A stretch of DNA of 64,000 bases from an uncultured Hyphomicrobiales bacterium (GTDB taxonomy: Bacteria; Pseudomonadota; Alphaproteobacteria; Rhizobiales; Beijerinckiaceae), in contig CAIUWR010000071.1 of assembly GCA_903902915.1 (NCBI GenBank), forward strand, positions 1 through 64,000, given 5' to 3'. The translations under genes and the position numbers were made by a program. Positions 4,247-35,858 of the stretch are shown piece after piece. The notes beneath the pieces are model-generated. The model was not told the origin of the DNA, made no database searches, and was given only the letters and a program-made list of their open reading frames with translations. How positions within the stretch are numbered: position 1 is the stretch's first letter; each line of letters starts with the position of its first letter.

Positions 4247-4624
4247 ATGACCCGCGCCGTGAAAATCCCCGGTCCTGACCATCCCATCGACATCGCGCCT
4301 TCTGGCGCGCGTGTGCGGGTGATCTGGCGGGGGGAAGTGGTGGCCGACACCACGCGCGCCCTGCGGCTCGCCGAGGCGTCCTATCCGCCGGTTTTCTATA
4401 TTCCGCGCACAGATGTGCGGGCCGATCTGTTGCGCGCGAGCGCGACGACGACCTGGTGCCCCTACAAGGGCGCGGCGAGCTATCATGGATTGGAATTGGG
4501 GGACGCGAGCAGCGCAGACGCCATCTGGGTCTATGAGACGCCGCATGAGGGCGTGGCCGCGATCACGGGCCATCTGGCCTTCTATCCGAATCGAGTGGAC
4601 CGGATCGAGGTTGGGCAGGGCTGA
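4247..4624 (+). CDS. DUF427 domain-containing protein
   Basis: This 125-residue soluble protein is one DUF427 domain. Typical features are the VRVIWRGEVVADT opening, FYIPRTDV in the middle and TTWCPYKGAASYH towards the C-terminal half, which carries a conserved Cys and His. The biochemical role of DUF427 is not established. Upstream lies the antitoxin remnant and downstream, convergent, trcR, so it appears monocistronic. A GGAG-containing stretch precedes the ATG. Family assignment is firm; function is unknown. Confidence 0.85.
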   Translation: MTRAVKIPGPDHPIDIAPSGARVRVIWRGEVVADTTRALRLAEASYPPVFYIPRTDVRADLLRASATTTWCPYKGAASYHGLELGDASSADAIWVYETPHEGVAAITGHLAFYPNRVDRIEVGQG

Positions 4625-4699
4625 CGCCACCCCCATGGGGGTGGCGACGTCGGTCTGGAAACAGCCAAGGCCAGCGCCCCGGGGACGCTGGCGAAAGGC

Positions 4700-5419
4700 T
4701 CATTCCTTGGTCTTGAGATCCTTGAGCTTCGAGAAAACCGAGTCGACGTCGAAATCGTCGTGCTCGTCGCGCACAGGGGCGGAGGGCTGGCTTTTGCCGA
4801 ACACGTCTTCCTGGCTGAAAGTCTGCTCGGGGCGGGGACCGGTGGTGATCTCGGCCGAGAGCAGCATGGCGCCCTGATCGAGGGCGTGCTGCGGACGCTC
4901 CTTGTTGCCGCGCGCCACTTCCATGTCGAGATCCATCTGCGAGCACATGCCCAGCGTCACCGGATCCATCGGCGACAGATTGGCCGCGTTCCAGTGGGTG
5001 CGTTCACGGATCGACTGCAGGGTCGTCTTGGTGGTGCCGGCGAGGCGCATGATCTGCGCATCCTTCAGCTCGGGATGGTTGCGCAGCAGCCACAGGATGG
5101 CGTTGGGGCGATGTTCGCGGCGGGATTTCGGCGTATAGCGCTTGCCGCGCGATTTCATCTCCGGAATGCTCACCTTCGAGACGGCGAGCCGCAGATGATA
5201 GCCGGAATTGGCCTCGCCGCGCGCGATCTCCTCGCGGGTGAGCTGGTTGGACGTGATGGGGTCATGGCCCTTGATCCCCGCCGCCACTTCGCCGTCGGCG
5301 ATTCCCTTGACTTCAAGCGGATGAAGTTTGCAGAAATCGGCGATCTGGTCGAAGGTCAGCGAGGTGTTCTCAACAAGCCAAACGGCCGTCGCCTTCGGCA
5401 TCAGCGGGGCGTCGCTCAT
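4700..5419 (-). CDS. trcR: Cell cycle transcriptional regulator TrcR (DUF1013)
   Basis: This 239-residue protein is colinear with the alphaproteobacterial DUF1013 family, named TrcR in Caulobacter. Its N-terminal part (LMPKATAVWLVENTSLTFDQ, FCKLHPLEVKGIADGE) resembles a helix-turn-helix. The central LWLLRNHPELKDAQI and AGTTKTTLQSIRERTHW stretches are strongly family-like. The C-terminal 50 residues are acidic and probably disordered. TrcR-type proteins are thought to bind RNA polymerase or DNA in cell-cycle control; that is family knowledge, not visible here. It follows the quinone oxidoreductase gene on the same strand after a 177-bp gap holding a long hairpin, so it probably has its own promoter. 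Confidence 0.88.
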   Translation of the reverse strand: MSDAPLMPKATAVWLVENTSLTFDQIADFCKLHPLEVKGIADGEVAAGIKGHDPITSNQLTREEIARGEANSGYHLRLAVSKVSIPEMKSRGKRYTPKSRREHRPNAILWLLRNHPELKDAQIMRLAGTTKTTLQSIRERTHWNAANLSPMDPVTLGMCSQMDLDMEVARGNKERPQHALDQGAMLLSAEITTGPRPEQTFSQEDVFGKSQPSAPVRDEHDDFDVDSVFSKLKDLKTKE

Positions 5420-33637: not shown

Positions 33638-33856
33638 ATGATGCCCGATCTGCCCACCACTGAACGAAGCGCGTTGGAAGAAGAATATGTGCGGCTGCGC
33701 GAGGAGCATCGCGATCTCGACGCCGTCATCGACGCCTTGCTGGCGGGCGGATCGGTGGACCAATTGCAATTGCAGCGGCTGAAGAAGCGCAAGCTGTTGC
33801 TGCGCGACCGCATCTCTTTCCTCGAAGACCAACTGACGCCGGACATCATCGCCTGA
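33638..33856 (+). CDS. YdcH family (DUF465) small protein, second copy
   Basis: This 72-residue protein has the same two-helix plan (EEEYVRLREEHRDLDAVIDA, LKKRKLLLRDRISFLEDQL). It starts MM, so either ATG is possible. It is divergent from the first YdcH gene. Downstream come the 21-bp repeats and the AAA ATPase; purE follows in ordinary genomes, so the ATPase looks inserted behind this gene. Function unknown. Confidence 0.82.
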   Translation: MMPDLPTTERSALEEEYVRLREEHRDLDAVIDALLAGGSVDQLQLQRLKKRKLLLRDRISFLEDQLTPDIIA

Positions 33857-33872
33857 GACGATCCGCAGCTCT

Positions 33873-33945
33873 ACTCAACGCTTTTGCATATTCAGTCAAC
33901 GCTTGTGGGAATTTACTCAACGCATTCAGGCACGCTATCCAACGT
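33873..33945. repeat. Four direct repeats phased at 21-22 bp
   Basis: The 9-mers ACTCAACGC (33873), AGTCAACGC (33894), ACTCAACGC (33915) and ATCCAACGT (33937) recur at 21, 21 and 22 bp, two turns of the helix, so all face the same side of DNA. The array ends 28 bp before the AAA ATPase start. It looks like a multimeric operator or iteron set for a cooperatively binding protein. A transposon-end array was considered, but no matching inverted set is seen after the gene. Confidence 0.75.
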
Positions 33946-33972
33946 GAGCAGTGCTTTTAAATTGGAGCGACC

Positions 33973-35211
33973 ATGGCTTCTGTTTCCAGGACACCCGTTT
34001 CCGACGATGAGTGGACCCATCTGGAGTTTGAAATCTCAGCCCTTTTCGATGGCGCGCCCATTGACGAGGAAGATCTATTTGCCGGTCGCTCGACAGAAGT
34101 TCGAAGAATCCTGGAGACCGTGCTCTCCCGTTCCAAACATGTTGTGCTGTTTGGTGAGCGGGGCGTCGGCAAAACCTCACTGTCGAATATTTTCTGGAAG
34201 CGCTTCAACAAGACGCTTCGGAGTTTCGTTGTCGCTCGGGTCCAAGCTGGCCCACAGGACAAATTTTCCTCCTTGTGGACACGGGCGCTTGAGGAACTGA
34301 ACGCGGCCGGGATAGCCGCCGGAAAGGCAGAGTATGTTAATTTCGAATTCGGTTACGAAACGATCACCCCGTCGCAAGTCAGGAGAGAATTGCAGAAATG
34401 CGGAGCGAATGCTCTGCCGATCATTATCATCGACGAGTACAATGAGGTAAAAGATAGCGAAACCAAACGACTGACCGCTAATTTAATTAAGGAATTTTAT
34501 GATTTTTCCATCACAACAACGGTAATAATAGTTGGTGTCGCAGAAAATATTTCCGAACTTATTGAAGATCATGCCTCTATTGGTCGAGCTATTGTTCAGA
34601 TTCCATTGAATAGAATGTCTTCAAGCGAGCTAAAAGAAATAATTCAAAAAAGAATTAGCAGAACCGTAATGGAGTTTACTGCGGACGCAGTTTGGACAAT
34701 CGTGTCTCTTTCACGTGGGTTGCCTTATTTCACGCAAACACTCTCAAAGCATGCAGCATTACATGCAATCACGGATCGGAGAACGAAAATTACAAATGAT
34801 GATGTTGAGGCGTCAATGGCGAAATTCATTGAAGACGCCGAAAAAGGATTCCAAGAATCGTATAGAATCGCGACGCGAAGTAATCAGGAAAACTTCTTTG
34901 AACAGTCGCTTTTGGCCTGCGCGCTTGCGAAAACAGACGATGAGGGGTTTTTTACCGCAAATGACGTCGTCGAACCATATAGCGCCATCTTGAAAGAAAA
35001 AAAGAGAATTGCTCATTTTGACAAACATTTGCGTCGCTTTTCTTCAGATGAAGGCGGAAATATTTTGAAAAAAAGAGGCGGAGATCGTCAGCAAACCTTC
35101 AGGTTTTCTGACCCTATGATGCAGCCTTACGTAATCATCCGCGGAATTCAGAGCAAAATGATCGACGATACGGCAAAAGGCGTCCTTTTGCAGAAAGAGC
35201 AAAAAGAGTAG
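33973..35211 (+). CDS. Orphan AAA/Orc1-like ATP-binding protein
   Basis: This 412-residue P-loop ATPase has Walker A GERGVGKT at 61-68, Walker B IIIDEY at 151-156 with D154 and E155, and a sensor-like VGVAEN near 187-192. A helical lid region follows, then a C-terminal winged-helix-like part (TFRFSDPMMQPYVIIRGI). The plan resembles archaeal-type ATPases and Orc1/Cdc6- or STAND-like NTPases. The second half is visibly AT-richer than every neighbour (runs such as ATAATAGTTGGTGTCGCAG), a sign of transfer. No nuclease, protease or transposase partner is adjacent. A defence, plasmid-maintenance or transposon-derived origin is possible; function unknown. Confidence 0.75.
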   Translation: MASVSRTPVSDDEWTHLEFEISALFDGAPIDEEDLFAGRSTEVRRILETVLSRSKHVVLFGERGVGKTSLSNIFWKRFNKTLRSFVVARVQAGPQDKFSSLWTRALEELNAAGIAAGKAEYVNFEFGYETITPSQVRRELQKCGANALPIIIIDEYNEVKDSETKRLTANLIKEFYDFSITTTVIIVGVAENISELIEDHASIGRAIVQIPLNRMSSSELKEIIQKRISRTVMEFTADAVWTIVSLSRGLPYFTQTLSKHAALHAITDRRTKITNDDVEASMAKFIEDAEKGFQESYRIATRSNQENFFEQSLLACALAKTDDEGFFTANDVVEPYSAILKEKKRIAHFDKHLRRFSSDEGGNILKKRGGDRQQTFRFSDPMMQPYVIIRGIQSKMIDDTAKGVLLQKEQKE

Positions 35212-35309
35212 ACTTTTTAAAGGAGTGGAAGCGTCAGGGCGCTTCAGCTTCATAGACGAGCATCGACCCCTGACTGCGCCTGAGCGCGAAGCTTGCGGCT
35301 GATCGTGGC

Positions 35310-35858
35310 ATGGGATATGTGCGCCCTTTGGCCGAACAGCCGGGACTTGCCGTGGAAAAGTCGCCTCCCCCCATCGCCATCATCATGGGCAGCCAGTCCG
35401 ACTGGCCCACCATGCGCCATGCCGCGCAAATGCTGGAGCAGCTTGGCGTGGCCTATGATGCGCGGATCGTCTCCGCCCATCGCACGCCGGAACGCCTTGT
35501 CGATTTCGCCAAGGGCGCGAAGGCGGAAGGGTTCAAGGTCGTGATCGCGGGCGCGGGCGGCGCCGCCCATCTGCCCGGCATGACCGCCGCCATGACGCCC
35601 CTGCCGGTGTTTGGCGTGCCGGTGGAGAGCAAAACCCTCTCGGGCCGCGATTCGCTTCTGTCCATCGTGCAGATGCCGCCGGGCGTGCCGGTGGGCACGC
35701 TGGCCATCGGCAAGGCGGGCGCCACCAACGCCGCGCTGCTGGCCGTGGCCGTGCTGGCCCTCAACGATCCCGCTCTGGCGGAGCGGCTGGACGCTTTCCG
35801 CGCCCGTCAGACAGCCTCGGTCGCGCCGCGCCCGGTCGATGATCCGGCTGGAGCGTGA
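35310..35858 (+). CDS. purE: N5-carboxyaminoimidazole ribonucleotide mutase
   Basis: PurE moves the carboxyl group of N5-CAIR to make CAIR in purine synthesis. The product contains [11 protein letters not shown], the catalytic histidine loop [20 protein letters not shown] and the [15 protein letters not shown] segment. From this ATG it has 182 residues, about 15 more than usual; a GTG at 35352 giving [13 protein letters not shown] is an alternative with the standard length, and neither has a strong ribosome site. purK follows five bases after its stop. Confidence 0.93.

Follow-up and report, generated by a model that had tools for sequence, protein, structure and literature searches.

The window analysed here, a 64-kb stretch of DNA from an uncultured Hyphomicrobiales bacterium, contains between a ydcH-type gene and purE an insert that encodes a single AAA+ ATPase preceded by a phased array of short direct repeats. 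The locus comprises the following features, numbered from the first position of the window.

33638..33856, plus strand: host flanking gene of the ydcH type (DUF465, domain match)
33850..33857: left copy of the apparent 8-bp target-site duplication, CGCCTGAG; it overlaps the 3' end of ydcH, and the insert-free junction is seen in relatives L177-L180
33858..35276: insert of 1,419 bp, 46% GC, with array, ATPase gene and 3' hairpin
33873..33881, plus strand: array site 1, ACTCAACGC
33894..33902, plus strand: array site 2, AGTCAACGC
33915..33923, plus strand: array site 3, ACTCAACGC
33937..33945, plus strand: array site 4, degenerate, ATCCAACGT
33973..35211, plus strand: AAA+ ATPase with C-terminal winged helix, 412 aa; matches PHROG 6841 (function not assigned)
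34885..35157, plus strand: winged-helix coding part, approximately residues 305-395, from the predicted structure with the boundary judged from secondary structure
35228..35245, plus strand: short hairpin after the stop codon, GAAGCG-TCAGGG-CGCTTC, a possible terminator read by eye and absent from the terminator-scan list
35277..35284: right copy of the apparent target-site duplication, CGCCTGAG, from the junction comparison
35310..35858, plus strand: host flanking gene purE (PF00731, domain match)

The CAACG cores of the array start at 33876, 33897, 33918 and 33940, giving spacings of 21, 21 and 22 bp. Sites 1-3 share an exact TCAACGC and site 4 reads CCAACGT, with 27 bases between the end of the last 9-mer (33945) and the ATG of the ATPase gene at 33973. 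When the 116-bp gap before the gene was shuffled 20,000 times with dinucleotide composition preserved, three identical 7-mers spaced 18-25 bp apart never occurred, so that the four regularly spaced 9-mers reported in a preliminary description of this DNA are borne out by coordinates and shuffles alike. That description also placed an ATPase gene richer in AT than its surroundings between ydcH and purE, and the domain matches and base composition agree: the insert has 46% GC against 64% for the whole window, with 41-51% inside the ATPase gene, 53-57% just to its left and 59-73% in most other GC windows across 28-42 kb. Promoter and terminator scans returned nothing above shuffles.

Relative to related genomes, the extra DNA is bounded exactly by the two copies of CGCCTGAG, which look like an 8-bp target-site duplication. 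The distance from ydcH to purE is at most 400 bp in 25 of 29 ydcH loci of genus relatives; in the other four, purE was not found in the stretch examined. Repeats without the ATPase at this junction had been named beforehand as evidence against a gene with its own array; the junctions of the four closest relatives (L177-L180, ydcH 82-89% identical; the sequence of L178 stops at the purE start) have neither repeats nor ATPase. A close homologue of the ATPase occurs only in the window genome among 51 genomes of the genus, with distant relatives (22-28% identity over the matched stretches) in two others. For other lone copies, homologues in 11 genomes of one genus resolved no insertion boundary.

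The ATPase reading frame is intact and has no change at any of the residues conserved throughout 66 relatives, which gives no support to the earlier suggestion of a remnant. Divergence from the closest relatives (dN 0.15-0.19, with dS saturated and giving no value) is only a qualitative sign of purifying selection on the gene. The predicted structure has the domain order AAA+ core, lid and C-terminal winged helix of an Orc1/Cdc6-like protein, and its closest structural matches are archaeal ATPases and DNA-bound Orc1/Cdc6, which match better than TnsC. The archaeal Orc1/Cdc6 initiators (2qby, 2v1u, 1fnn) likewise carry an AAA+ module with a lid followed by a winged helix, and have origin repeats near the gene; the window ATPase differs from them in being bacterial mobile cargo of ~13-15% identity, with no evidence of an origin. 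Scores below the cut-off were obtained with curated profiles, namely 25.6 bits for TIGR02928 (Orc1/Cdc6; curated cut-off 181.3, thus far below), 19.3 bits for Pfam TniB (cut-off 22.4) and 30.0 bits for Pfam ATPase_2 (cut-off 33.2), the last setting it apart from the archaeal ATPases PABY2304 (2qen) and SSO1545 (2fna), for which we know of no phased array. The protein belongs to the same family as PHROG 6841, which it matches at E 2e-43 (1e-47 for gp30 of mycobacteriophage Kevin1).

Exact repeats were counted at each lag upstream of the start codon and compared with shuffles in 120 non-redundant loci of the family; 139 had been found, of which 15 proved to be duplicates and four failed a filter that asked for 150 bp or more of upstream sequence and an aligned protein start. 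A 6-mer repeated at exactly 21 bp in 41 of the 120 loci against 3.8 in shuffles (z 21.9), with weaker peaks at lags of 42 (z 7.9), 11 and 32 (z 4.1 each) and 63 (z 4.0) and no enrichment at 52, 53, 73, 74 or 84. A mismatch-tolerant test was positive in 52 loci, against 4.3 at other lags. Where the loci were profiled, the signal is limited to about -150..0. The distance from the end of the last detected copy to the start codon has a median of 26 bp (11-113 bp in 29 loci), and from there an operator could block the promoter or the ribosome site. The spacing is conserved while the core sequence drifts: TCAACG in the clade of the window, TCTAAGT in L040, TTTACTAGT in L046, ATCAAGTAA in L037 and TTACTTGG in L158, and the top-ranked 6-mer (TACTTG/CAAGTA) occurs in 28 loci against 7.9 expected. 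Together with the gap shuffles, these lag counts rule out a chance repeat.

The family also travels as transposon cargo. An IS1-like transposase gene (PF03400) lies divergently upstream of the ATPase in 18 loci, to which L044, whose neighbourhood listing holds no intact transposase reading frame, was added by eye. Matching terminal inverted repeats with an 8-bp duplication enclose 16 of these 19 ATPase transposons (12 duplications exact, four with one mismatch), and were not found in L038, L061, which is cut by a contig end, or L063. L046 is a transposon of the IS1595 type that carries the ATPase as a passenger gene; its inverted repeats are CGGCCTTATGTATCAA and its duplication, GAACTACC, is exact. 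The window copy shares the 8-bp duplication of the IS1-type cargo transposon and lacks its transposase and ends: no terminal inverted repeats, GGTAGTG... included, were found at the ends of the insert, no reading frame in it encodes a transposase, and a search of the window genome for the IS1-like transposase gave no match at E <= 1e-40. Since the transposons of these loci end in the GGTAGTG repeats and hold the array in their interior, a general reading of the array as transposon-end binding sites was rejected.

In IS1-like transposons that lack the ATPase, the same slot holds other genes. This set comprised 19 of 24 transposase places that were fetched and four viral loci, 23 in all, of which 22 were informative since L270 ends 20 bp past the transposase. 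Because 12 of the 22 have inverted repeats and exact 8-bp duplications, the transposon appears to move without the ATPase; for the IS1-type element, this indirect evidence does not point to an ATPase required for carrier movement. Other cargo includes SocA/Panacea, HigB, Fic, GmrSD, an SDH-type protease and P63C. In scans of 10 of 19 cargo reading frames each, on two different sets, eight of ten proteins had a Pfam hit and three of ten had a strong PADLOC defence-model match; one of the ten in the Pfam set, from L256, belongs to a copy without confirmed ends. Members L252-L266 of this IS1-like family show the GGTAGTG... inverted repeats, 8-bp duplications and one swappable cargo slot, occupied by toxin-antitoxin, protease, Fic, GmrSD or PD-Lambda-2_B-type genes. 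Tn7-like transposons also include defence-type genes in their cargo, whereas the element seen here is a small IS1-type one with one or few cargo genes.

The array also occurs with the ATPase outside these transposons. In the 200 bp before the ATPase, a 7-mer repeated at lag 21 in nine of the 19 ATPase transposons (mean at other lags 0.3) and in 20 of the 95 loci, among the 120, in which no IS1-like or IS1595-like transposase was detected within 3.5 kb (mean 1.2); since the array recurs in the latter, the transposase is not required for it. ATPase-free copies, compared over 200 bp from the transposase 5' end, have the array less often than ATPase transposons (p 0.01-0.04), and at the 6-mer level a lag of 42 was found in none of the 22 against 14 of the 95 lone loci. 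For a requirement in the other direction, of the array for the ATPase, the support is only partial.

Phages and plasmids contribute further contexts. In Kevin1 the gene is a ~1.45 kb insertion relative to phage Charlie, less than 4 kb from the integrase and repressor genes, and in Gordonia phage Cashline its neighbours are tail genes on one side and the integrase gene on the other. The Kevin1 genome announcement describes the gene as an orpham in the variable region whose study may inform cluster N immunity (PMC6544188). Searches of the open PMC library, preprints excluded, listed no other paper on the ATPase family or the phased array. Three phage records (Kevin1 twice and Cashline) and 12 plasmid records matched, ten of the latter with 80% or more of the query covered, at 20-37% identity. 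Matches at E <= 0.001 occurred in 20 of 298 genomes of the family and 11 of 397 of the order, window genome included, and at E <= 1e-60 in seven of 398 of the phylum; further homologues lie on viral contigs and, by record title among the best 80 of 140, on genome contigs of many phyla. The distribution of the gene is patchy, as expected for a mobile gene.

We interpret this locus, with a probability of roughly 0.45, as a mobile single-gene cassette in which an Orc1/Cdc6-like ATPase is accompanied by its own phased operator and travels as defence-type cargo. The operator would consist of short asymmetric sites that follow one another at intervals of two helical turns in the promoter region of the gene. 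The C-terminal winged helices of successive ATPase subunits would dock on these sites, all on one face of the DNA, and with ATP would assemble a cooperative complex; this would repress expression of the ATPase gene itself or keep it tightly set. On challenge, released or activated ATPase would interfere with incoming or competing DNA, and the cassette would be carried by transposons, temperate phages and plasmids. The docking and repression half of this scheme is proposed because of the anatomy of the locus and the analogy with Orc1, and the action on foreign DNA because of genomic context; the phage and transposon cargo contexts favour a defence-type passenger, and a defence role is plausible. 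Judged from sequence, the ATPase insert is intact and mobile and is not a remnant, and the transposon in which it often sits does not depend on it. The preliminary description, with its isolated ATPase, an array of sites phased on one DNA face and a one-gene defence, replication-control or mobile element, agrees with these results in outline, the remnant excepted; beyond it, the array proves to be a family-level feature and the gene mobile cargo.

Several results weigh against this interpretation. Homologues without the array had been named beforehand as grounds for refutation, and the array, though detectable in roughly 40% of loci, is undetected in about 60%. Recognition of the array by the ATPase predicts that core and winged helix co-vary, and self-recognition is weakened because co-variation across 23 of the 30 array loci was not significant (Mantel p 0.06-0.23; 0.26-0.88 without the window clade). 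The neighbours of the ATPase are for the most part ordinary genes from many families, and few match known defence models; at E <= 1e-20 the raw counts are two models for those scanned upstream (95 of 99 reading frames) and 24 models under four system names, one member each, for those downstream (94 of 105). No partner gene is conserved across the 120 loci, and matches of the ATPases themselves to PADLOC 2023 models are weak (mad8 in 45 of 66 members, best 3.7e-8; PDC-S59 in 28 of 66, best 1.1e-9; also IetA and others). Finally, the lag-21 7-mer is present in three of the 22 ATPase-free transposons (0.1 expected from other lags), the tolerant test is positive in five (0.8 at other lags), and the shortfall of these copies against lone ATPase loci is not significant (Fisher p 0.15-0.56). 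The phased sites may thus also serve other cargo or the transposase, and these pairs lower our confidence in a cassette with its own operator.

The same pairs raise the standing of the alternative that the array is an operator of another protein, be it the divergent transposase, a host regulator or a general promoter feature of mobile elements, and in transposon loci the array does lie between divergent genes. The spacing is, however, enriched in several phyla and where no transposase was detected (95 loci), and TCAACG pairs 21 bp apart are scarce in the window genome (only three other places, once each, against one for a control pattern); both observations make this explanation unlikely in our judgement.

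Repeats of 7 to 9 bp at exactly 21 bp occur upstream of the transposase (minus strand) in ATPase-free L257 (2180), L227 (5427) and L267 (2041). The L257 example reads CACGTTTTT; other cargo may use phased sites too. The L036 array (~4921-4968) falls within the predicted reading frame of the divergent transposase (4399-4968, minus strand), at its 5' end, so that its sites could act on the transposase as well.

A selfish addiction or regulatory gene, kept because it stabilises its vehicle and without an anti-phage role, would suit a slot whose other occupants include toxin-antitoxin genes. Such a gene is distinctly unlikely here, as no conserved partner accompanies the ATPase: the only gene clusters in more than six of the 120 loci are the transposase, a small downstream gene and reading frames overlapping either. 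Bolder than the cassette itself, and something of a long shot, is the notion of an undescribed single-gene interference system: the Orc1/Cdc6-like ATPase would sit on a phased replica of origin-like sites in its own promoter and be redeployed onto invading replicons. Origin licensing would thus have been converted to mobile immunity, with array and gene packaged together and capable of inserting as a naked 1.4-kb cassette.

Iterons, with the ATPase as the replication initiator or copy-control protein of an Orc1/Cdc6-like origin, would accord with the fold, the sites adjoining the gene and the copies on plasmids and phages, but are very unlikely given the many copies beside ordinary chromosomal genes or in small transposons, where it is hard to see what an origin would do. 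No less improbable is a transposition helper, a target selector of the TnsC/IstB/MuB kind serving the IS1-like transposase with lone copies as stranded remnants: TnsC, MuB and TniB share the AAA+ core and, like this family, occasionally adjoin DDE transposases, but the IS1-type transposon moves with other cargo and no ATPase, the array lies in the promoter region of the ATPase and recurs in loci without a detected transposase, TniB is below threshold, and Orc1/Cdc6 and archaeal ATPases match better than TnsC.

A gene whose annotation stops at AAA ATPase or hypothetical is often accompanied by a cis-array that keeps its spacing from phylum to phylum but drifts in sequence, and this array provides an inexpensive test of what such orphan ATPases recognise. 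The small transposon family likewise provides a route to further candidates, with toxin-antitoxin, protease and defence-type genes all turning up in its cargo slot.

Some minor features accompany the family. Two ATPase copies were found in one genome in Luteibacter sp. dw_328 (L089 and L092) and in one planctomycete metagenome-assembled genome (L073 and L127), and in Cashline (L053, 7843-9438) the ATPase gene is close to a gene for a Ro-like RNA-binding protein. In 15 of the 120 loci the ATPase gene is followed by a small convergent gene (e.g. L044, 7174-7428, minus strand, and L055), the basic product of which ends in GGxARAxxLTxxRRxEIAKKAAxxRW, and a similar motif begins the P63C cargo proteins of L253 and L254.
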